IMG/VR virus record: IMGVR_UViG_3300031576_000072 | Location: 1 to 49,201 of that record | Source: a virus | Strand: one strand, 5' to 3' | DNA length: 49,201 bases | Made by a program: the position numbers and the translations under genes | The notes under the pieces: generated by a model | What the model was told of the DNA's origin: nothing | What the model saw: the letters and a program-made list of their open reading frames with translations, nothing else | The model's database searches: none | In this document: one piece after another, positions 1 through 49,201 of the stretch | Layout: every line of letters begins with the position of its first letter | How positions within the stretch are numbered: position 1 is the first letter of the stretch

Positions 1-127
1 GATCTAAAAAATTCGTTTTAACGAACGGTCTTTTGCCGCGTTTCGATAATTTTGAAACTTTGACCGCGCGTAAAAATATTTTTTCTTTTAATGTCCTTAA
101 AACACAAATCTCTTCCGCAAATCCATC
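1..127. repeat. Terminal direct repeat, left copy (circular junction)
   Basis: The first 127 bases, starting gatctaaaaa and ending aaatccatc, recur exactly at 49075-49201. The portal reading frame runs across the joined ends, so this is the overlap left by assembling a circular or circularly permuted genome. The 127-base length equals a common maximum k-mer of short-read assemblers, so it is more likely an assembly overlap than a biological terminal repeat. Confidence 0.95.
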
Positions 128-6516: not shown

Positions 6517-6720
6517 ATGGCATGGAGTGCAGAAGTAACCGAAGTAAGCAGAGCAGAAGCGCAACGGCTTATCGTTGCACAGGCGAAGGACGAAGGGATC
6601 AATGGCGCGTTCAAGGTGTTTTACGACAATAATCTTGTCGCTAACCCTGCGGACTTGCCCGAAACGGTGGATATGCGCAAGGTGCGCGTGTCAGCCGTAC
6701 TTGACCAGGCAGGACGCTAA
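6517..6720 (+). CDS. Candidate ubiquitin-like modifier (PRTRC protein C-like)
   Basis: A 67-residue protein starting at ATG 6517, 8 bases after AAAGGGG. The second half (AFKVFYDNNLVANPADLPE, then RKVRVSAVLDQAGR) looks like paired beta strands; the first half is a helix. It sits immediately before E2-like, E1-like and JAMM genes, the place held by the ubiquitin-like protein C in PRTRC cassettes, whose FK-x-NG-x-x-x-x-DP stretch it loosely resembles. It ends Gly-Arg rather than Gly-Gly; removing one residue would expose a C-terminal Gly. The family call leans on context and is weaker than for its neighbours. It could instead be an unrelated small protein, with the true modifier elsewhere. Confidence 0.45.
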   Translation: MAWSAEVTEVSRAEAQRLIVAQAKDEGINGAFKVFYDNNLVANPADLPETVDMRKVRVSAVLDQAGR

Positions 6721-6731
6721 ACGTGTTCGCG

Positions 6732-6758
6732 GGGGCGGTAGTGCTACGCTATCGCCCC
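6732..6758 (+). promoter_or_regulatory. Strong mRNA hairpin between the modifier and E2-like genes
   Basis: GGGGCGGTAG-TGCTACG-CTATCGCCCC forms a 10-bp stem with one G-U and a 7-base loop. It lies 12 bases after the upstream stop and 28 before the next start, without a T-tract. It could stabilise the upstream mRNA 3' end or partly attenuate transcription, giving more of the short protein than of the enzymes. Confidence 0.65.
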
Positions 6759-6786
6759 ACAACACTCCATAAGAAAGGACGAACGT

Positions 6787-7539
6787 ATGACCACACCGAA
6801 AAAGCCCCGTATCGCTTTGCCTGAAACGGATTTCGTTAAGATCGGCGAACGGTTTTATACACTGACAAAAATTCATAACGCCAAGCTGGATATAGTTAAA
6901 GAACTGCATGAATATTACCAGAAACAACTGGACGCGCATGTGGTTGCTGTTCAGGAAGCGGCGGTCAAGACCAGCATGGAAGAATGGGACACACAATTAG
7001 AACATTTGAAGGGCAAGCAGACGCGCAATATGGTAGAAATCCCAGCGGCTTTATATGAGCACCCTGTTATGTGGCACAATAAGACGCTTTTGGAACTGCG
7101 CGCGGTGCGCTACGCTCCCGTAAGCATAATCGGTTCCCGCGCATGGTTCGTGGAATACGGCGTAACGGGCTTTCCCACAGAAGGATTACCGCACGACCAG
7201 TGGGAATTAACGCTCAAGCACGATTACCGACAAATCATTTGGTACGGCTTTCACGCGCAAAGCGACACGCTGTACACGCTGAACGCCACGACATATCACA
7301 CGATGAACGGCGGCAACGTGTGTACTGGCAACCATAAAGCGAGCGACTTTTGGAAAGCCGACAACTTTGGTGAACTGGTTAATCGTATCAATGGGTTTTC
7401 TTTAGCGTCGCAGACGTGGCGCAGTCAAGACGGAAAGATACATGTACATATACGGGATTTACTGCACGACGCGACCATTATAAACCGAACATTAATAACG
7501 CGCGAAGGCGCAAGGGGGTCGGCATGGATAACGACATAA
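6787..7539 (+). CDS. E2-like ubiquitin-conjugating protein (PRTRC protein B / Prok-E2_D-like)
   Basis: A 250-residue protein. The C-terminal half carries SDTLYTLNATTYHTMN (about 159-174) followed by GGNVCTGN (175-182), closely matching the LYxAPxxNVxxxGxVCxG signature of PRTRC protein B, which has been assigned to a prokaryotic E2-like family. Cys179 is the only cysteine in the protein, which singles it out as the thioester residue. Residues 30-80 form a helical, coiled-coil-prone extension. It is followed with a 16-base overlap by the E1-like gene. Expected role: take an activated modifier from the E1-like protein and pass it to a target. Substrate unknown. Confidence 0.75.
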   Translation: MTTPKKPRIALPETDFVKIGERFYTLTKIHNAKLDIVKELHEYYQKQLDAHVVAVQEAAVKTSMEEWDTQLEHLKGKQTRNMVEIPAALYEHPVMWHNKTLLELRAVRYAPVSIIGSRAWFVEYGVTGFPTEGLPHDQWELTLKHDYRQIIWYGFHAQSDTLYTLNATTYHTMNGGNVCTGNHKASDFWKADNFGELVNRINGFSLASQTWRSQDGKIHVHIRDLLHDATIINRTLITREGARGSAWITT

Positions 7540-8231
7540 ATTTGGTTGATTACTCACGGCAAGCGGAGTTTGACGGCGAAATTCAACAAGTGTTACTCGA
7601 TAAACAACGCAACCATCACGTCATTATCGGTTGTGGCGGTGTGGGCTTTTGGCTTGGGCTTATGTTAGCCATGCAGGGATATGACCGTTTTACGCTGATT
7701 GACGGCGATAAAATAGACAACAGCAACCTCAATCGCTTGCCTGTGCCTCAAACATGGATTGGTACGAATAAAGCCGTCGCGCTTCGTAAGATGATACGCT
7801 TCCTTCGTCCGACGACTATAATTACAGCGTTAGCGGCGCATATAACGCCTGAAACTATCACCTTGCTAAACACACTGACCGAAAAACAAATGGAAGATTA
7901 CAGTATAAATGCCGTTCGCTTTTGGGATACGACAGATGACGCGCGCATACAGCAACGCATTAAGACGATGGTGGAAGAACTCATAAAAGCGCGCGGCGCG
8001 CAACGCGTCATGTACCGTAAGATCGGTTATGAAGGCTGGAAAGTAGGCAATTACGCCGATTATAATGTGTGGCTGGATGAAGCGACGTATCGTCCAGGCT
8101 ATCGCACAGCGCGCGCGAACGCCATAACATCCGCCGTAAGCGCGAGTTTAGGGTTTTTAGGCATGGCGTTTAACAGCCCTGATATAGACATTGACCTTAA
8201 AAAATTACTAACAAAGGGGAAGAAAAAATGA
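7524..8231 (+). CDS. ThiF/E1-like adenylating enzyme
   Basis: A 235-residue Rossmann-fold protein, starting at ATG 7524 behind AAGGGGG. Motifs of the E1/ThiF/MoeB family are clear: nucleotide loop IIGCGGVG (34-41), LIDGDKIDNSNLNR (58-71) with the Asp, Asn and Arg that bind ATP and Mg, Lys83 in GTNKA, and DTTDD (135-139). It should adenylate the C-terminus of a ubiquitin-like protein. The only cysteine is Cys37 inside the glycine loop, so there is no conventional E1 catalytic cysteine; the adenylate may pass straight to Cys179 of the E2-like partner. Its stop overlaps the JAMM start (ATGA). Confidence 0.85.
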   Translation: MDNDINLVDYSRQAEFDGEIQQVLLDKQRNHHVIIGCGGVGFWLGLMLAMQGYDRFTLIDGDKIDNSNLNRLPVPQTWIGTNKAVALRKMIRFLRPTTIITALAAHITPETITLLNTLTEKQMEDYSINAVRFWDTTDDARIQQRIKTMVEELIKARGAQRVMYRKIGYEGWKVGNYADYNVWLDEATYRPGYRTARANAITSAVSASLGFLGMAFNSPDIDIDLKKLLTKGKKK

Positions 8232-8884
8232 ACGGGTTTACGACTATGGCTTCATGGGATGCGCCAGAAAACGATTGGGACACAGGCACATCCGCGAAAG
8301 AAGCGAAAGATTGCAGTTTTTGCGGCGAGCGTAAAGTAACCATCCAGCTTACGCCTAAAGTCTTGGGCGTCGTGCGAAAATTATGCGAGGACATTAAGGT
8401 TGAATGGCAGATGTTACTGCGTGGCACGGTTACGGATGATTTAGTTTTAGTCAATGATTATTACATCCCGCATCAGGAAGTTGGCTCGGCGAGCGTGACG
8501 AATCTGGATTGCATTGATAAGACACGCATTGACGAACTTGGCATTGTGGCGACCATTCACAGCCACGCGGAAATGGGCGTGTTCTTCAGCTCGACGGATG
8601 AGCAATATACGAACAGCAGTTTGATTAAATATCACATCGTATGTAATAACGCGGGAGAGTTTAAAGCGACAGGACGTATTAACTTACCATGCGGCATGAT
8701 GAAATATCTTGATGCGCGCGTCACGCCGTCTTATACGATGGCGCAGAAGGTTAAGGGCTTTGAGAAAATAAAGAAGCAGGAACCGTATGTTTACCAATAC
8801 AGTCTACCAGCGTACTACAATCGGCAAGACGATTCGTTGTGGGGCTTTGGTAAACACGCGTACAAGGGAGAGGAAACGATATGA
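8228..8884 (+). CDS. JAB/JAMM-domain metalloisopeptidase (deubiquitinase-like)
   Basis: A 218-residue protein with a complete JAMM zinc site: Glu59, then HSHAEMGVFFSSTD (111-124), which fits H-x-H-x7-S-x2-D exactly. JAMM enzymes next to E1 and ubiquitin-like genes trim modifiers to expose the terminal Gly or remove them from targets. The N-terminus has a CSFC pair (29-32) that could bind a second metal; residues 160-218 are an aromatic, Lys-rich tail without match. Together with the two upstream genes it forms a tightly overlapping operon. All catalytic residues are present. Confidence 0.88.
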   Translation: MNGFTTMASWDAPENDWDTGTSAKEAKDCSFCGERKVTIQLTPKVLGVVRKLCEDIKVEWQMLLRGTVTDDLVLVNDYYIPHQEVGSASVTNLDCIDKTRIDELGIVATIHSHAEMGVFFSSTDEQYTNSSLIKYHIVCNNAGEFKATGRINLPCGMMKYLDARVTPSYTMAQKVKGFEKIKKQEPYVYQYSLPAYYNRQDDSLWGFGKHAYKGEETI

Positions 8885-9357
8885 TGCACCATTCTTACGC
8901 CAGTCATTTGGAACATCGTGTTATTTTACGTAATTGGGTCACATTTAGTATACAGTGCAAAAGTATGCGCTTTACAGCATTTTTGGAGAACAACGTTTGC
9001 GCGGGCATGGAAATGCGATTCGCGTACCGTTCGTCACTTTGGTTTATTCGTTCGTATGACGACGGCACAGTATTATTTCGCCAAAATCTTTTACGACAAG
9101 AATTTCACAGACATTATCCGTGTTATCGACGTGTCGTGGATGTGATTGATAAATACTATACGTTAGTTGAAGAAGTTGATGACACGATGATGTCCGTCGA
9201 TGATGCCCTGTATTGCCGTTCACACTACGGCGGATGGGGTGAGAAAATAGTCATTTATCGCCGTAGAGCGATTAACCCGATGTTAACGCCGCCGCACGCA
9301 CAAACTTTCAGCAGTTTCTTATCCCTAAAATATAATAAACAAGAGGTGCTTGCATGA
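8881..9357 (+). CDS. Hypothetical protein coupled to the JAMM gene
   Basis: A 158-residue protein whose ATG overlaps the JAMM stop (ATGATG). It is rich in His, Arg and aromatic residues with four cysteines (two near the middle, two later). A strand-rich N-terminal half (VTFSIQCKSMRFTAFLE) precedes a helical stretch (RRVVDVIDKYYTLVEEVDD). I do not recognise it. Coupling to the modification genes makes it a candidate substrate, adaptor or E3-like factor; there is no motif evidence for any of these. Confidence 0.7.
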   Translation: MMHHSYASHLEHRVILRNWVTFSIQCKSMRFTAFLENNVCAGMEMRFAYRSSLWFIRSYDDGTVLFRQNLLRQEFHRHYPCYRRVVDVIDKYYTLVEEVDDTMMSVDDALYCRSHYGGWGEKIVIYRRRAINPMLTPPHAQTFSSFLSLKYNKQEVLA

Positions 9358-22790: not shown

Positions 22791-24478
22791 GTTATATGTG
22801 TGTTGATGTGGAAACAAACGGGTTGAACTCGTTCCTCGGCGCGCGTCCGTTTGTCATCACGACCTGCGATGAGAATGAATGGACGCGCTATCTACGTGTC
22901 GGACAAGATAACCTTATTCCTTTAGATATGGAATTGATGATCCCTTCGAACGAGATTATCGGGCACAACTTGAAGTTTGAAATTCTTATGTTAGCGACGT
23001 ACGGCATGAAGATAGGCGGCCCCATGCACGACACGCTTATCGCCGCGCACATATTCAATCCGACAGAACCAAGCAAGAAATTAAAAGATTTAGCCTTGAA
23101 ATATCTCGGCATTGAACCTAAAGAAGAAATGATTTTAAAAACATACATGAAACAACACAAGATCACGGACTATTCGCTTGTGCCTGAAGATATCATGCGT
23201 CCGTATACCATCAATGACGTGCTCATCACATGGCGCCTTTTTAATTTTTACCGTTCAAAAGGCGTATTGGAAGACCCTGTGTATAAAATGGAAATGCGGC
23301 TTCTGCCGGTTTTGGCGCGCATGCAGACACGCGGCATGCTTATTGACAAACCGTTCTGCATCGAACAGCAGCAACGCTGCGCCAAACGTCTGCAAGAGAT
23401 CGAAACCCATACCGCCATTGAATATCCTGACGTTGACCTCTTGAGTAATAGAAGCCTCGGTGAATTTTTGTTTCAAAAAGAAGGGCTGACATGCAAGAGT
23501 TTCTCCGAGAAAGGCAATCCGGAACTGGATGAATATCATTTAGATCAATATCAGCACGACATCATACCGTATGTTCTTGAATACCGCGAACTGACCAAAG
23601 CGAAAAGCACGTATCTCGATGCGCTCATTGAGCAGAGCGACGCGGACAACGTCATTCATTGTGATCTTTGGCAGACAGGCGCCGTTACCGGGCGCATGTC
23701 GTGCCGCTCGCCGAATTTGCAAAACGTCCCAAAAAATCTCAGCGTTGATTTGCGCAAAGCGTTCATTTGTCGCCCTAATTACAGCCTTGTTTATTATGAT
23801 TATTCACAGATCGAGCTTCGCCTCATGGCGCACTACGCGAAAGAAGAGAAGATGTTGGAAGAATTACGTAAACCGAACGGCGATTTGCATGCGTTGACCG
23901 CCAAAGCGTTATTCGACGACGTAGATCCGCAAAAACGGGATATCGCCAAGCGCCTTAATTTCGGGATCATCTATGGCATAGGCGCGGCTAAATTTGCCAT
24001 GACACTTAACCGGGAATATCCCGACAAAAATTACACCTACGCCGACGCCAGAGCATTCATCACGCGGTATTACAATACGTACCAGAAAGTTCGCACATTC
24101 ACGTGGAAGGTACAGCAAACTATTTTAGACAGAGGGCATGTCTTCGACGTGTTTGGACGGAAATACTACGCAGATAAAGATACGGCTTATAAAGCAGTTA
24201 ATTACATCGTCCAAGGTTGCGCGGCGGGCGTCATAAAACAGGCCATGATAAAAGTCGACAAAGCTCTGCAAGGTTGCCAGAGCCGCTTACTTCATTCTGT
24301 CCATGATGAATTAATAATTGAAGTACATAATACTGAAGAAAATCTAATAAGTGCGGTAAAGGAATTGATGGAAGACCACACAACATTTGCTGTTCCTGTC
24401 ACTGTAAACATTGCGAAAAGCGCGACTACCTGGGCGGAAAAACAGTCTCTTCCTGTTGTCGCGGACTCAATCCTTTAA
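22787..24478 (+). CDS. Family A DNA polymerase with 3'-5' exonuclease
   Basis: A 563-residue protein. Exonuclease motifs: DVETNG (Asp7, Glu9), HNLKFE (60-65, Glu in place of the usual Asp, as in some other phage enzymes) and YTIND (140-144). Polymerase motifs: A DYSQIELR (338-345), B RDIAKRLNFGIIYG (384-397, with Phe392 at the ddNTP-selectivity position), C HDE (505-507). No 5' nuclease domain. It replicates the phage genome. ATG 22787 overlaps the HNH stop. Its end overlaps the convergent late gene by 53 bases. Confidence 0.96.
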   Translation: MSYMCVDVETNGLNSFLGARPFVITTCDENEWTRYLRVGQDNLIPLDMELMIPSNEIIGHNLKFEILMLATYGMKIGGPMHDTLIAAHIFNPTEPSKKLKDLALKYLGIEPKEEMILKTYMKQHKITDYSLVPEDIMRPYTINDVLITWRLFNFYRSKGVLEDPVYKMEMRLLPVLARMQTRGMLIDKPFCIEQQQRCAKRLQEIETHTAIEYPDVDLLSNRSLGEFLFQKEGLTCKSFSEKGNPELDEYHLDQYQHDIIPYVLEYRELTKAKSTYLDALIEQSDADNVIHCDLWQTGAVTGRMSCRSPNLQNVPKNLSVDLRKAFICRPNYSLVYYDYSQIELRLMAHYAKEEKMLEELRKPNGDLHALTAKALFDDVDPQKRDIAKRLNFGIIYGIGAAKFAMTLNREYPDKNYTYADARAFITRYYNTYQKVRTFTWKVQQTILDRGHVFDVFGRKYYADKDTAYKAVNYIVQGCAAGVIKQAMIKVDKALQGCQSRLLHSVHDELIIEVHNTEENLISAVKELMEDHTTFAVPVTVNIAKSATTWAEKQSLPVVADSIL

Positions 24479-27400
24479 AAAAGTAATATTCGACAGCTTT
24501 CCGCCCTTCATGTGTTTGTTTATACCGCGCTAATGCTCTAAAGAATCCTTCCGTGTACCCCACATTAGAAGCAGCTTTAATAAACGCACGCAGCGCTTTA
24601 TCACGTTGCACATCCGGCAAACTCGTGTATGCTTCAGATGTGACTACTTTTTCTAAAACAGAACGTAATCGGGGGCCATATTTCTTAGTCAAATCATCAC
24701 GCTCATCCTGCGTCAACGACACATTTTTAGCTGCCGGGCCGTATGGTTCGGGATAAAGTCTTAACCGATCCATTTCATTATCTAACACGTTAGTGGTTTG
24801 TTTGGTTATACGTAATGGCGCTCTCCCGAATGGGATCGGTAAAAAGCCCTCTTCTGATCGGCGCTGCTCACTACCATCCCAATTTAAACGCGGGCGTACA
24901 GTACGTGATAAACCGGGTAATGTGGCTTTGAATTCTTCACGAATATTTTGCGGATTGCGTACGGTCACATCACCTTCAAGCACGCCTGGAATACCGGCAC
25001 GCGTTGTTTTACGCAGCAGGCTGCTGAATGGCACAGAACCGCTCACCGCCCAACGATCGAAATAACGTGATATCGGCGTCGGCACTGACACCACATTTCC
25101 TTCATTGTCATAAATTGTTTTGGGTGTTTTTAAATCTTCGAATAAATTAACTAATTGCCGTGGCGTATCAAAATAACTTTCACTCAAAATACTTTTTGTG
25201 AACCGTCCAATCGTATCATTTATATTTTGTGGCGTAGGCATGCCGCGTTGTTTGGATTTTTCGAATTCTCCCAGTGCCGCCAAAGTCGCGAAGAAATATG
25301 ATGCCGGCGCGTTGTTAGTAAAGCTCACTGTCTTACCATCTTTAAATCTGATACTATTTTCCGGATAACCCTGCTTATTCCATGCTTCGCGCTGTGCTCG
25401 ATCTTTGGCCGAAGCACGAATATCAACATCATTGTTCTTCATCCATAAATATATACCGGCAGTACCGAGCGTGCCATTAACGACTTTCGCTAACTGCTTT
25501 AAATCAAGACCACCCGCTTTACGTGATTCGGCAATGACGTTGCCTATTCCCAATAAACTATGATCGACAAATAGTTTACCCAGATTAACCTGCGTGTTGA
25601 AGAACCGTATAAACAAACGCGACACTTTAAATTTGTTCATTAAATCTACAAACTGCTTGCCGGTGGGCCCAAGCTGTCGTAGTAACGTATATTCTAAGCG
25701 ATCCGCCTCGGCTTCCCGCAATTGCTCAGATGGTAATTTCTGCATTTCTTTCAATACCTGTCGATTGCTTGGGTGCTCCATTCCTTGTTTAAGCAGATTG
25801 CGTACCGCCAGTGCGGCGCGTGTAGAGTCACTGCTTAATAAACCAAAAAACTCGTCCCCGGCTTTGATTGGACGGTATGGTAAGCGGATAATTTTCCCAG
25901 CGATATCTACTGCTTTTTGCACGCCTTCTGACGCCCCTAATTTTTTAGCCAGTTCGCCGGTAATAGCTCGTGGACGCACAGTAATATCGTCAATTTTGGT
26001 TACATTTCTTTTGTTCAAAATATACGCTATATCACGATTTAATTCACGTAATTGACGCGCTCGCGCTTTCTTTTCGGCGGATAGAACAGGATGTGTTTGT
26101 TCTAATTTTTGTATACGCGCATTAAGATCTCGAAGCACGGTTAAATCATCTTCGTGGCGCAAATAGAAACCAGCATAGCGCGTCGCGCGACCGATTGTTG
26201 ATGAAAGCGACTTTATTTCTTCCACACCTTCACGTAAGAAAGATTCTTGCGCAAGGGGTATTTTAGCTTTGCCGCCCGACACCGCTCCCAACCCAACGTT
26301 CGCTGCTTGAAAAAGTTTTGTTAACGCGCCTTGCGTAAAGCGATTTATCGTTTTGAGTACCGATAGTTGCGCGTTACCAAAGAAGTTACGTAACATTGTA
26401 TCCGTAGAACTAAGTAAATTCGCGTTGGAATATTCTATAAGCACATCCCACATGTCCGCACTTTTAGGTTCTTTTTCCATTAACTCAATAAGATCAATGC
26501 CTTCTTGGAGACGCGCTTTTTCAGCGCCTTTCGCAGTTGCTAATTGTTCACGTAATATACCCAACGCTTCATTCAAATCCGGAGGCTTCTTGCGCGATTC
26601 CAAAATTCGTCCACCCAATGATCCGATGCGCTGATAACTGCGTAAATTTTTAATCACATCATCCATGACCGGAGCAATATCTTTGCCCCGCGCTTTGCTC
26701 ATCGCAAGAATTTGCTTCACAGCAATAATAGCATTATCACCGATAGCCGCGATTTCATCATCATTTAAACTTAAAATATCTGTGGTTAATTCATCCAGCT
26801 TCGCGCTCGGCACATTCGCCAATCGTTCTTTTCTTCCGATCACTGTTTTTGATTTTAATATCGAGGCGGTTTCCGCGGCTTTCTCAAACTGTGCTGATTC
26901 TTCCGGAAATTTACGCAACTGGATATTGCCTAATTTTTCCGTTGATGGTACCACACTTTGGATCACTGCGTCCGATATCAAGCGTTCACCAGCGTCATTT
27001 GTTAATGACTCTAAATATCCGCGCACCGACATTTTACGTTGGGCCGCGAGCTGTGTGAGCTTAGGAAGATTTGCACGAATAAACTCGATATCGTCTTCCG
27101 CGCCGCCTCCCAAACCAGTTTCAATCGAACCGCGCTCTTCACCTAAAATATTTCTCGGTTTTCCCTTACTTGGCTTGGCGCCAAAAATCTGCGCTTGAGT
27201 AAGTTCGTCTTCACGCGCCTTAAGCTGTTTAACTTCCTCTGATATCGCCTTTTTATTCGCACCGGTAAGCCCCGCTCTTTCACCGCGTTCCAGCAGCGCG
27301 CTGCGCTGTTTACGTACTGTGTTCAGTTCCGTTGAAATTTCGCCAGCCGTCATTTCTTCAACCGGACGCGTGGGCGTGGCTGCTTTCGGTTTAACCGGCG

Positions 27401-29597
27401 CGGGAAGTTCCGGCGCTTCCTGACCGGGTAACGTCGGTTTACCTTTGGCGGGTTTTAACTGCGCGAGATATTCTTCAAACGCCGCGTCTTCTTCACCGAC
27501 CGGTACGGCTTTAACTTTAGGTTTAGGCTTTGCTTTAGGCGCGGCTACGACTGTTTCCGGTGTACGTCCGCTTAATTTATCCAGTTCACGCACCATATTT
27601 TGATACGCTTTGCGCATGTCAGGCGGTAAATCTCCCGCTTGCAGACGGCGCACAGCGTCCGCGCGTTGCGCCACGATCTGTTCTTCATACGTATTACCTT
27701 GCTTTGCCGCGCGCTTACGAAGTTGATTCTCTAATTGCACACTTAATGGCGTTCGCTTCGGTTCAACTGTGATGCGCTGTTCGAAAGCCCCACTTTCGAT
27801 ATCAGCTTTTACCTGATCAAACGGTGATACTGCGGCAGGTAATAATGGTTTTGCTTCCGGCTCCGCGATGGGTAGCGTCGCTTTAAGCGCGGGCGGTTTG
27901 ATGGGAAGACTTGCCTTCAAACCTAATTTTTTATTAAACACTTCTATTATTTTTCCAGAATCTTCATCCACAACAGCAAAATCTTCTCCTATTATAGGAT
28001 CATGTAAAACAGTAATATTAGTGTCAGGTGATATTTCCGGATGTTTTTTTAAGAATTCATCATCATACTCTCCGGCTTTTTGGCTTATCCTTTCAAATGT
28101 ATCCTCGGTTACTTCTCCGTGCCTCTGTTTAATTTCTTGTTCAACTGATTCATATAAGTTTTTTACATTATTTTTTTCAAGTGCTGTAAGAAAACCCGCC
28201 TTTGCTTTAGGCGCTTTCTTAACTTTTATCTTTTCCGCTCCAACAACAATCGGCGGCTCTTTCGTCATTTGTTCCGCCGCCGCTACAAGCGGATTCTGTA
28301 TCGGCGCGACTTTAGGCGGCGTAACGGGCGCGACTTTAGGCGGCATAATGGGCGCGCGCGCTTTGCTCAACGCTTCATTAATAAATTGTTTTTGCCCCGT
28401 ACTAAAAGCATATCCTTCGCTATCCCGTTCTAATAAACGCAACAGATCCGCTTTCTCTTGCGCCAATACCGCTTGCTTTTCTAAGTCAGCAATAAGCTTG
28501 GGTTTATCACGCAAAGCTTCCCCATATATTTCCGCGTCTTTCGTGTTTTTAAATTGATATTTTTTACCTAATTGCTGATCAATTTGCGCTATACGCGCTT
28601 CCGCATTTACCACCGCAGCCAACGGCTTCGCTTCTTTTGCTGGATGCAGAGGTATCTGCTCCGCCGGCGACAGTAGGCGCGGCACGGGCTGATTGCCGAA
28701 TGGGCGCATTTGCCGCAACTTCGCTTGATACGCGGCGCTTTCATCTGGTAATGCGGGCTGTCCCGGTTGTGCGAAATCAAATAACAACTGTTCTTCTGGT
28801 TGTGGCACGGCAGGCTTAGTAAAATCAAATTCAAGCTGTTCTGGACGCGGACGTATCGTGGCGATATCCCGGCGTAATACCTCACGCATCGCGGCAGATG
28901 AAAGCGGTGCTGCTTTCGGTGCCGCGCGAAGTCGTGGACGCGGCATTCCTAAATAACTTATCGGATCGACACCGGTATCAATCGCTAAATTACGTATATC
29001 ATTCAAAAATAATAAAGCCTGTTTAGCTCCATATTCTAACGGCGTCGAAGCAGTCGGCTGCATCGCGCTTGACACTTCTGTACGATACGGCACATTACCC
29101 GGTGATGTTAAACCTTGCGTAAACGCGCTTCGCGGGCCGACATTAATAAACGGCTCTAAAGGAGAAACGGGCAGATTGCGTTGAAGGGATTCACCAAGCG
29201 CACCGACATCTTGCGCCAAGCCACGCCCAAAAAATTCTAACGGCGAACCAGCAGTAAATTGTGGAGTTTGTCGTGAAGTTTGAACATCACTGATAACGCG
29301 ATTAAGTACGTTGCGCAGCCCGGCTCCAGGACGCGCCACGGTACCATAAATCGTTGTTTCTGTCGGAGCGAATTTACCCGGCTCTTGGAGCCACGCGGGT
29401 ACCAGACGTTCACTTAAAGAAGGGCCGGCATATTTATTAATCGGAGCAGATTGCTCACCTAAAATAAGATCAAAAAATCCTTTCTGCTCCGGCGAAAAAT
29501 ACGTTTCATATGTTGGACTTGCACGTAAGCGCGCCACTTTCGACATTATAGTAGGACTCGAACGAATCAGTTCTAATCGCGCCAAATTAATAGCCAT
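24426..29597 (-). CDS. Giant internal virion / ejection protein candidate (1,723 residues)
   Basis: The last gene of the late unit. N-terminal third: SPxxYETYFSPEQKGFFD and loop-rich segments, with QLEFDF (254-259) and QLLFDF (270-275). Middle: Pro/Lys-rich linkers (PPKVAP, KPKPKVKAVP) around charged helical segments. C-terminal half (from about 1050): a long ordered region with amphipathic helices (LLSSTDTMLRNFFGNAQLSV; LPYRPIKAGDEFFGLLSSDS; VSRLFIRFFNTQVNLGK) and WDGSEQRR. Size, position and helices fit the multi-domain polyvalent or internal proteins ejected with DNA by podoviruses. No peptidase or lysozyme motif found. An A/T-rich part at 27930-28190 looks inserted. Confidence 0.7.
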   Translation of the reverse strand: MAINLARLELIRSSPTIMSKVARLRASPTYETYFSPEQKGFFDLILGEQSAPINKYAGPSLSERLVPAWLQEPGKFAPTETTIYGTVARPGAGLRNVLNRVISDVQTSRQTPQFTAGSPLEFFGRGLAQDVGALGESLQRNLPVSPLEPFINVGPRSAFTQGLTSPGNVPYRTEVSSAMQPTASTPLEYGAKQALLFLNDIRNLAIDTGVDPISYLGMPRPRLRAAPKAAPLSSAAMREVLRRDIATIRPRPEQLEFDFTKPAVPQPEEQLLFDFAQPGQPALPDESAAYQAKLRQMRPFGNQPVPRLLSPAEQIPLHPAKEAKPLAAVVNAEARIAQIDQQLGKKYQFKNTKDAEIYGEALRDKPKLIADLEKQAVLAQEKADLLRLLERDSEGYAFSTGQKQFINEALSKARAPIMPPKVAPVTPPKVAPIQNPLVAAAEQMTKEPPIVVGAEKIKVKKAPKAKAGFLTALEKNNVKNLYESVEQEIKQRHGEVTEDTFERISQKAGEYDDEFLKKHPEISPDTNITVLHDPIIGEDFAVVDEDSGKIIEVFNKKLGLKASLPIKPPALKATLPIAEPEAKPLLPAAVSPFDQVKADIESGAFEQRITVEPKRTPLSVQLENQLRKRAAKQGNTYEEQIVAQRADAVRRLQAGDLPPDMRKAYQNMVRELDKLSGRTPETVVAAPKAKPKPKVKAVPVGEEDAAFEEYLAQLKPAKGKPTLPGQEAPELPAPVKPKAATPTRPVEEMTAGEISTELNTVRKQRSALLERGERAGLTGANKKAISEEVKQLKAREDELTQAQIFGAKPSKGKPRNILGEERGSIETGLGGGAEDDIEFIRANLPKLTQLAAQRKMSVRGYLESLTNDAGERLISDAVIQSVVPSTEKLGNIQLRKFPEESAQFEKAAETASILKSKTVIGRKERLANVPSAKLDELTTDILSLNDDEIAAIGDNAIIAVKQILAMSKARGKDIAPVMDDVIKNLRSYQRIGSLGGRILESRKKPPDLNEALGILREQLATAKGAEKARLQEGIDLIELMEKEPKSADMWDVLIEYSNANLLSSTDTMLRNFFGNAQLSVLKTINRFTQGALTKLFQAANVGLGAVSGGKAKIPLAQESFLREGVEEIKSLSSTIGRATRYAGFYLRHEDDLTVLRDLNARIQKLEQTHPVLSAEKKARARQLRELNRDIAYILNKRNVTKIDDITVRPRAITGELAKKLGASEGVQKAVDIAGKIIRLPYRPIKAGDEFFGLLSSDSTRAALAVRNLLKQGMEHPSNRQVLKEMQKLPSEQLREAEADRLEYTLLRQLGPTGKQFVDLMNKFKVSRLFIRFFNTQVNLGKLFVDHSLLGIGNVIAESRKAGGLDLKQLAKVVNGTLGTAGIYLWMKNNDVDIRASAKDRAQREAWNKQGYPENSIRFKDGKTVSFTNNAPASYFFATLAALGEFEKSKQRGMPTPQNINDTIGRFTKSILSESYFDTPRQLVNLFEDLKTPKTIYDNEGNVVSVPTPISRYFDRWAVSGSVPFSSLLRKTTRAGIPGVLEGDVTVRNPQNIREEFKATLPGLSRTVRPRLNWDGSEQRRSEEGFLPIPFGRAPLRITKQTTNVLDNEMDRLRLYPEPYGPAAKNVSLTQDERDDLTKKYGPRLRSVLEKVVTSEAYTSLPDVQRDKALRAFIKAASNVGYTEGFFRALARYKQTHEGRKAVEYYFFKGLSPRQQEETVFPPR

Positions 29598-48069: not shown

Positions 48070-49201
48070 ACTCACCTCCTTTCTTTTGTGAATTTTGGAA
48101 ATTCATAACCATTTGCATTAATTGTTTGTGTTCTTCAATATGTTTGCGTAATAATTCAACCGCTTCAGGTGGCCATAACAATATATTCGGGCCATTTAAT
48201 TCACGCATATGGATCAAAATATGCTCTAAATGATTTTCCTGCGGTTCCGCATGAATGGCGCGCCCTTCCCGCATAATAGTGTGTTCCACCACAGGATCGT
48301 TTGTTTCTTTTGACGTTTGTGGTTTGCCTAACCAATCCGCCGGCTCTTCACCATAAGATTTCAAAACATTCGCGCTGGCGTACCACAAACGGTTGATGTC
48401 CCCCGTCACCAAAGGATTGCCCCCTAAAACGAACTTATCATAAAGAATGATGGATAATTCGCGCTGTACATCAATGTCGCCCTGATCCGCCGACGCCCCG
48501 ATATAAACGTCCATTTCTGTTAAAAACGCGTCCTGCATCGCTTCATAACTATCAAAAATCGGAGTTGAATCTTCACCTAAAATCCGCTTCTCTAATCCTT
48601 GCGGCATATTCATTGTGCATAATTCAAAAATATTCATCAAAATTTCAGCGAGCCCCAAACGTAAATTCGTTGCCGGCAGATTAAAACGAATATTTGCGGA
48701 AGATGAAATTTCCTGAACCCGTGTGGCCGTCCCCGATCCGCCGACAATTTCCGACTCTTTACCAAGCGCATAAGATGACGCGGCAGTTAAACGTTCAACA
48801 AATTCCAGAACTAAACGGATAGCATTTAATAATCTTTCAACAGGTATGCTTATATCAGGAAAGTAAACATTTTGCTGCGGGTTTGTTACAGGGTACATCG
48901 CGCGAGGTTTAGCGACGTGTTCGTCCGGATCATAATCTGAATTGGGATCGTAAAATCCCCAACGCATAATACTCAAAGTATTCGCATCCTGAAGTTGTCT
49001 AAAACACGCATCGATCTCTTCCGCTAAAGGACGTACTTGTTCCAGAACACCGATGCCTAAAAGTTTATGAATACGATCTAAAAAATTCGTTTTAACGAAC
49101 GGTCTTTTGCCGCGTTTCGATAATTTTGAAACTTTGACCGCGCGTAAAAATATTTTTTCTTTTAATGTCCTTAAAACACAAATCTCTTCCGCAAATCCAT
49201 C
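47921..49201 (-). CDS. Portal protein, C-terminal part (continues from 1-1087)
   Basis: The frame is open at 49201 and is the same as that of 1-1087 once the 127-base overlap is collapsed. It includes RPLAEEIDACFRQLQDANTL, the conserved core (FYDPNSDYDPDEHVAKPR) and YFPDISIPVERLLNAIRLV, followed by the helical barrel and a flexible tail of Gly, Ala, Ser, Gln and Asn (from about residue 700). The tail codes for the overlapping coiled-coil protein in another frame. Confidence 0.88.
   Translation of the reverse strand, partial: DGFAEEICVLRTLKEKIFLRAVKVSKLSKRGKRPFVKTNFLDRIHKLLGIGVLEQVRPLAEEIDACFRQLQDANTLSIMRWGFYDPNSDYDPDEHVAKPRAMYPVTNPQQNVYFPDISIPVERLLNAIRLVLEFVERLTAASSYALGKESEIVGGSGTATRVQEISSSANIRFNLPATNLRLGLAEILMNIFELCTMNMPQGLEKRILGEDSTPIFDSYEAMQDAFLTEMDVYIGASADQGDIDVQRELSIILYDKFVLGGNPLVTGDINRLWYASANVLKSYGEEPADWLGKPQTSKETNDPVVEHTIMREGRAIHAEPQENHLEHILIHMRELNGPNILLWPPEAVELLRKHIEEHKQLMQMVMNFQNSQKKGGEFGQRGGKTQGAGGASSAPGELPVSSNANPASGAAENQIQGTTLGTPAIR
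49075..49201. repeat. Terminal direct repeat, right copy (circular junction)
   Basis: Exact copy of bases 1-127. Removing one copy gives a 49,074-bp circle with an uninterrupted portal gene. Confidence 0.95.

Follow-up and report, generated by a model that had tools for sequence, protein, structure and literature searches.

A Ubl-E2-E1-JAMM gene cassette in a complete phage genome and its relatives, a candidate system for reversible protein tagging

Organization of the Locus

The window (the whole stretch of DNA that was analysed, 49,201 bases) is a complete phage genome of 49.2 kb. Between positions 6517 and 8884 its + strand carries four genes in the order Ubl, E2, E1, JAMM (Table 1). These four open reading frames lie where a first-pass annotation, made from the sequence alone, had placed them and contain the motifs that it named, and a purine-rich, Shine-Dalgarno-like stretch precedes each of them. 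They had also been described as one overlapping operon, which holds for the E2/E1, E1/JAMM and JAMM/next gene junctions but not for the Ubl gene, which is followed by a 66-nt gap before E2.

Table 1. Features of the cassette and its immediate surroundings in the window.
Feature	Position	Strand	Details
Ubl, modifier candidate	6517..6720	+	67 aa; C-terminus ...VLDQAGR; beta-grasp type fits relatives and AF2 model
Hairpin, 12 bp	6732..6758	+	In the Ubl-E2 gap; MFE -28.4 for the gap, z -3.9
E2-like conjugating enzyme	6787..7539	+	250 aa; H171 (7297-7299), catalytic Cys179 (7321-7323), N202, S205
E1-like adenylating enzyme, ThiF fold	7524..8231	+	235 aa from ATG 7524; Pfam ThiF
JAMM/JAB isopeptidase	8228..8884	+	218 aa; E59, H111, H113, S121, D124
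Fifth gene, conserved	8881..9357	+	158 aa; overlaps the JAMM stop by 4 nt

Both genome ends carry an exact direct repeat of 127 bp (window 1-127 and 49075-49201), on account of which the contig looks complete and circularly permuted, and the portal gene crosses the end junction. The + strand carries early genes, among them helicase, primase and DNA polymerase A, together with the cassette, while the terminase and structural genes occupy the opposite strand. We found no tyrosine integrase in the complete genome using a search that was positive in control genomes, which is consistent with the lytic lifestyle assumed in the first-pass annotation without proving it. The absence of ParB and of a cyclase, claimed at the same time, was borne out genome-wide, as neither ParB_N (controls positive 10/14) nor a SMODS (CD-NTase) cyclase (controls positive 3/14) was detected in the complete genome. 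Elsewhere, the minus strand encodes a protein of 1723 aa at positions 24426-29597. This size is unusual for a phage of 49 kb, and the protein may belong to the virion interior or act in DNA ejection.

Proteins Encoded by the Cassette

The E1-like protein contains the motifs GCGGVG, DGDKIDNSNLNR, TNKA and DTTDD and matches Pfam ThiF at 2.6e-16 over a single ThiF stretch. Its profile retrieved ThiF (1e-24) and the NEDD8 E1 (4e-22) from the PDB, with MoeB also among the best relatives, and the adenylation residues R12, GxGGxG, N68, K83 and D138 show little or no variation across 12 phage E1s. We could not find a catalytic thioester cysteine in the E1 of the window or of its relative L006, where the only cysteine is Cys37 within the GCGG nucleotide loop. 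Such a cysteine is not universal among E1-like enzymes; given its absence, we claim that this protein works like an E1, and not that it is a canonical one.

In the JAMM protein, the motif H111-S-H113-x7-S121-x2-D124 and the upstream E59 form an intact metal site (ExnHxHx7SxxD), whose catalytic residues are invariant in 10 phage sequences. The match to Pfam Prok-JAB (3.5e-5, 24.1 bits) falls just under the cut-off of 25; PDB matches of the profile include AMSH sst2 (6e-7), RPN11 (7e-5) and BilC (0.1), and there is a weak match to PRTRC_A (E 0.0064). L006 has a homolog of the fifth gene immediately behind its JAMM gene; the match has E 3e-8 and scores 36 bits, where 100 shuffles reached no more than 21. 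Homology could not be demonstrated in L115.

Searches of Pfam, NCBIfam, PHROGs and PADLOC gave no convincing match for the two remaining proteins, E2 and Ubl. The E2-like protein carries the previously named motif G-N-V-C179-T-G, and the label "PRTRC-B-like" given to it initially is not supported: a Pfam/NCBIfam search up to E 5 returned neither PRTRC_B nor Prok-E2_D. A genome search with TIGR03737 (PRTRC_B) was also without a match, but no control genome was positive either, so it carries little weight. Only C179, N202 and S205 are invariant among 12 window-type E2 sequences. The six best PDB sequence matches of the 12-member profile are all UBE2C, at marginal values (E 0.028-0.041), in an alignment that pairs the HPN histidine, the catalytic Cys, the Trp after the Cys and the PNxxSP motif. 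Marginal as the match is, the residues so aligned are nonetheless those that define the E2 active site, as judged from sequence. The E2s of the window subclade and those of the L032/L077 group align with an hhalign P of 2.7e-5 over 195 columns. The AlphaFold model of the window E2 is too poor for a fold search (pLDDT 52.6), and no E2 fold was present among its Foldseek and VIA structure matches; a UBC fold remains unproven for the 250-aa protein, and so poor a prediction weighs neither way.

The window Ubl appears to be of a truncated beta-grasp type that lacks the first beta-hairpin, and no start codon was found upstream of it. Its AF2 model (pLDDT 76.5) has the succession strand-helix-strand-strand-strand; Ubl-fold chains stand at the top of its Foldseek list, though with weak scores (E>0.6, Z about 3), and the list also contains ThiS and MoaD. 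Related Ubls are 70-97 aa long, with two N-terminal strands, a helix and further strands in the secondary structure read from their sequences, and most end in ...AG or ...RG, either bare or followed by one or two residues. From the helix through the later strands, the window/L006/L115 group aligns with these full-length Ubls (P 2.7e-6). The first hairpin is missing from the window and L006 proteins, which share 28 of 67 positions, because they begin too late; the L115 gene is cut by the contig end. Whereas the Ubls of L032, L179 and L110 end in Gly, the window Ubl ends in LDQAGR and neither of its two close relatives has a terminal Gly (L006 LDQASSFKA, L115 LNQA). Alanine can be the last residue of bacterial cGAS modifiers, and an Ala mutant accumulates thioester (PMC10097602); a mature ...QA end after trimming by the JAMM is possible for the window Ubl, an inference from analogy.

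A Hairpin at the Ubl-E2 Junction

The hairpin in the Ubl-E2 gap is the second strongest local hairpin in 19.8 kb. Hairpins at this junction are among the strongest of the locus in the window, L006, L115, L032, L077, L179 and L214, ranking first to fourth in the six close relatives. In the window, L006 and L115 they measure 12-15 bp, and the enzyme genes there overlap each other. A U-run follows the hairpin in L032 and L179. We considered and dropped the label "terminator" for the window hairpin, because a terminator scan of the window gave nothing beyond shuffles and no U-run follows the hairpin there; an attenuator or an mRNA-protecting element is likely. Hairpins of similar strength occur at other junctions of L179, and in a distant group (L056, L110, L131, L178) no outstanding junction hairpin was found. 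Because the hairpins of L179 and of this group do not single out the junction, a reading in which the tag is made in excess is confined mainly to the window subclade.

Distribution of the Cassette

Exact-peptide scans of viral contigs (E2, E1) and tblastn searches of phages (E2, JAMM) returned no window-type relative. A terminase search found L006, in which the terminase is 63% identical and the cassette has the same order, with amino acid identities of 42% (Ubl), 30% (E2), 52% (E1) and 44% (JAMM). In each of the cassette genes, divergence is greatest at codon position 3, a sequence pattern consistent with purifying selection on all four, and E2 Cys179 and the JAMM metal site are also kept. 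As L006 has all four genes in the same order with this pattern of divergence, the four reading frames are not due to chance.

A survey of related phages found the order Ubl-E2-E1-JAMM in at least 10 contigs other than the window (L006, L032, L056, L077, L110, L115, L131, L178, L179 and L214, and L203 with a split E2), and the cassette is thus not restricted to the window phage. Taken together, homology, conservation of catalytic residues and conserved gene order support the initial claim that a phage carries a complete cassette of this kind. The L203 E2 is split over two frames (L203:9311-10213), and L214:5482-5658 is a partial second E1 copy; either may reflect assembly errors or decay.

At least 120 viral contigs match a DNA pattern made for HSHxxMxxFFSxTD, the JAMM core, and at least 119 match a narrower pattern, the two sets overlapping. 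Across 84,980 genomes of bacteria and archaea the narrower pattern has 11 occurrences, at least one of them (L224) on a contig also recorded as viral (L124). Among the matches listed, 66 loci, selected by the JAMM motif alone, have flanks of 2.5 kb on both sides, and every one of them has an E1 within 3.5 kb of the JAMM. Two arrangements occur among the loci listed, JAB-E1 (170 loci) and E1-JAB (15 loci); a window-family E2 is present in 11 of the latter 15, and in 10 of these 11 a recognised Ubl precedes it. The motif C[ST]xK[QH]T is present in 91 of 149 E1 reading frames of the JAB-E1 order, and window-type E1s share no cysteine at this site, so that window-type cassettes combine the order Ubl-E2-E1-JAMM with an E1 lacking C[ST]xK[QH]T. 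The wider clade with the E1-JAMM order has no conserved E1 cysteine, yet it retains Ubls with a terminal Gly. A ThiF match in OR845565 was rejected as a relative, being part of an ordinary thiamine gene set.

Several other contigs deserve mention. On the 117-kb phage contig L143, a 140-aa reading frame (L143:3138-3557) consists of two identical tandem Ubl-like units of ~70 aa, each ending in RTGTKG, and precedes genes for an E2 that matches Prok-E2_D, a JAB and an E1; it is possibly a phage polyubiquitin-like precursor. Among contigs of the JAB-E1 order, L024, L025 and L035 contain E2-like motifs of the HPHxSxxxPCLG type, near the canonical HPN...C signature, and small upstream Ubl-like reading frames are found at L024:780-1016 and L035:1294-1497.

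Sister Cassettes in Crassvirales and Flavobacterium Phages

Crassvirales (Steigviridae) and Flavobacterium phages carry a Ubl-E2-JAB-E1 block beside primase or uracil-DNA glycosylase genes, with the E2-like protein in 74 records and the JAB in 74 records. In Crassvirales the block lies between the DNA primase and uracil-DNA glycosylase genes. Its proteins are annotated as "hypothetical", "metalloprotease" or "ThiF" and, as far as we found, the block (e.g., crAss001 gp79-gp76) has not been named as a system in the literature. The JAMM and E1 of the Crassvirales type are homologous to those of the window (hhalign prob 97), and they likewise stand with Ubl-like and HxHx6CxG E2-like proteins in one operon beside replication genes. 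The Crassvirales type differs in gene order, in the C[ST]xKQT motif of its E1, and in the long C-terminal extension of its Ubl after K-x-[IV]-[KR]-S-G. Comparison of the window-type E2 and Ubl with this type by hhalign gave nothing significant, and the Crassvirales/marine E2 profile had no match in the PDB.

The Ubl proteins of L018:3214-7624, L002 and L015-L023 have an N-terminal Ubl-like domain, the conserved K-x-[IV]-[KR]-S-G motif and the long extension, a layout that suggests that these phage Ubls may be processed after SG. In L022:1456-2659, an annotated HNH endonuclease gene stands between a 92-aa reading frame and a remainder without a Ubl domain, as if the Ubl gene had been split by a homing endonuclease.

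A Possible Phage-Owned Tagging System

We propose, with a probability of about 0.72, that the cassette is a phage-owned, reversible protein-tagging system whose targets are unknown. The JAMM would trim the Ubl C-terminus from AGR to AG or A, a step that is inferred, and the E1 would use ATP to adenylate the trimmed carboxylate. Because the E1 has no evident thioester cysteine, we infer that the activated Ubl would go directly from the adenylate to Cys179 of the E2. The E2 would then attach it to amines on proteins of the phage or the host, with no dedicated E3 visible, and the JAMM would take it off again; conjugation itself is an inference, since no conjugate has been seen. In the window subclade, the hairpin after the Ubl gene could plausibly allow an excess of tag over enzymes.

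Early expression is inferred from the location of the cassette on the same strand as the replication genes, and most likely the cassette tags host or phage proteins early in infection, a role that is untested. As the Crassvirales sister cassettes lie between replication-linked genes (primase and glycosylase), our leading guess, by analogy, is that the targets may be host or phage proteins of replication and takeover. The poor E2 model, the marginal UBE2C match, the E1 without a thioester cysteine and the hairpin-less Ubl count against tagging, as do the missing Pfam matches of E2 and Ubl, their lack of an hhalign link to the Crassvirales type and the Gly-less ends of the two closest Ubls. More tentative, and a little short of an even bet, is the wider proposal of a distinct, widespread phage lineage of Ubl conjugation, in which a cysteine-less E1 would deliver a minimal, adenylated tag ending in Ala or Ala-Gly directly to the E2 cysteine, and which phages would use to reprogram host or phage proteins during infection.

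One particular role within the tagging reading, its likelihood overlapping with that given above, would be counter-defence or inter-phage exclusion, with the tag attached to a protein of host defence, to a Ubl enzyme of the host or to a protein of a competing phage, the reverse of what Bil does to phage tail fibres. Known bacterial cassettes of the E1/E2/JAB kind act in phage conflict (PMC10097602) and the JAMM family is strongly phage-biased, but there are no data on a host defence partner, a target or exclusion, and the conserved site near replication genes in sister phages suits a core role equally well; we regard this role as possible, though on the improbable side.

The main biochemical rival to tagging is a sulfur-carrier relay, in which a ThiS/MoaD-like Ubl matured by the JAMM would be adenylated by the E1 and loaded with sulfur by a host sulfurtransferase for a modification such as tRNA or nucleotide thiolation. 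MoeB and MccB function with no Ubl thioester, so an E1 devoid of the phage E1 cysteine would fit such a relay, as would the presence of ThiF and MoeB among its best PDB relatives and of ThiS and MoaD in the Foldseek list of the Ubl. Every complete window-type cassette encodes an E2-like protein with the invariant Cys and PNxxSP, and sulfur transfer is disfavoured because this protein is conserved. The neighbouring genes that were scanned contained no recognisable rhodanese-like or acceptor gene either, which leaves the relay unlikely. We give very little credence to a decaying remnant, with function being lost in the window subclade as the truncated, Gly-less Ubl (hairpin lost; C-termini LDQAGR, LNQA and LDQASSFKA) and the cysteine-less E1 might suggest, because all four reading frames are uninterrupted in three diverged phages, the E2 and JAMM catalytic residues are invariant, and the wider E1-JAMM-order clade, likewise without a conserved E1 cysteine, keeps Gly-ended Ubls.

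Bacterial ubiquitin-like cassettes are known chiefly as anti-phage defence or plasmid genes. Sets similar to that of the window are widespread in phages, and no paper describing them was found in the open-access literature. Complete sets in phages, including culturable Crassvirales such as crAss001, mean that phages may tag proteins too, and phage-driven protein conjugation becomes directly testable in existing isolates. Under the tagging reading, a cysteine-less E1 working with a dedicated E2 would also inform how E1-E2 cascades arose.

Comparison With Known Systems

By the features tested, the cassette is not Bil, PRTRC, type II CBASS or 6A. With PRTRC loci and type 6d of Iyer 2006 (PMC1779556) it shares separate small Ubl, E2, E1 and JAB genes. 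It differs from them in having neither ParB nor a PRTRC B/C match, and in the histidine upstream of the E2 Cys, 6d E2s having been described without one (PMC1779556). The E2s of L223 and L143 match PF14460. The L223 cassette, cyanobacterial (Pleurocapsales) and PRTRC-like, shares the JAMM core of the phage cassettes and has a Prok-E2_D E2 (1.2e-21), a combination that ties the phage JAMM family to PRTRC.

The Bil system conjugates its tag to phage tail fibres. Like the window cassette, BilABCD comprises four genes for a Ubl, an E2, a DUB and an E1, and BilC matches the window JAMM profile (E 0.1). BilA has two Ubl domains, BilB a CEHH motif and BilD both an IAD and an AAD (PMC11354881), whereas the window Ubl is a single 67-aa domain, its E2 has no CEHH (the residues at +6, +8 and +13 from C179 are A, D and N), and its E1 is a single-domain protein of 235 aa in place of inactive and active adenylation domains.

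Type II CBASS (Cap2/Cap3) offers the same E1, E2 and JAB activities, as well as the alanine C-terminus of some cGAS modifiers (PMC10097602). The window differs in its dedicated Ubl and in the lack of a SMODS cyclase in the genome, and its E2 and E1 are separate overlapping genes, not fused as in type II CBASS and 6A.

For phage cassettes, our literature search, which was limited to open access and could miss subscription or preprint reports, found only the tail TAPI/TAPK of Iyer 2006. These are a phage Ubl and JAB pair of lambda/T1 tail assembly (PMC1779556). The window has the phage Ubl and JAB in common with them, but adds an E1 and an E2 and sits with early genes rather than tail genes.
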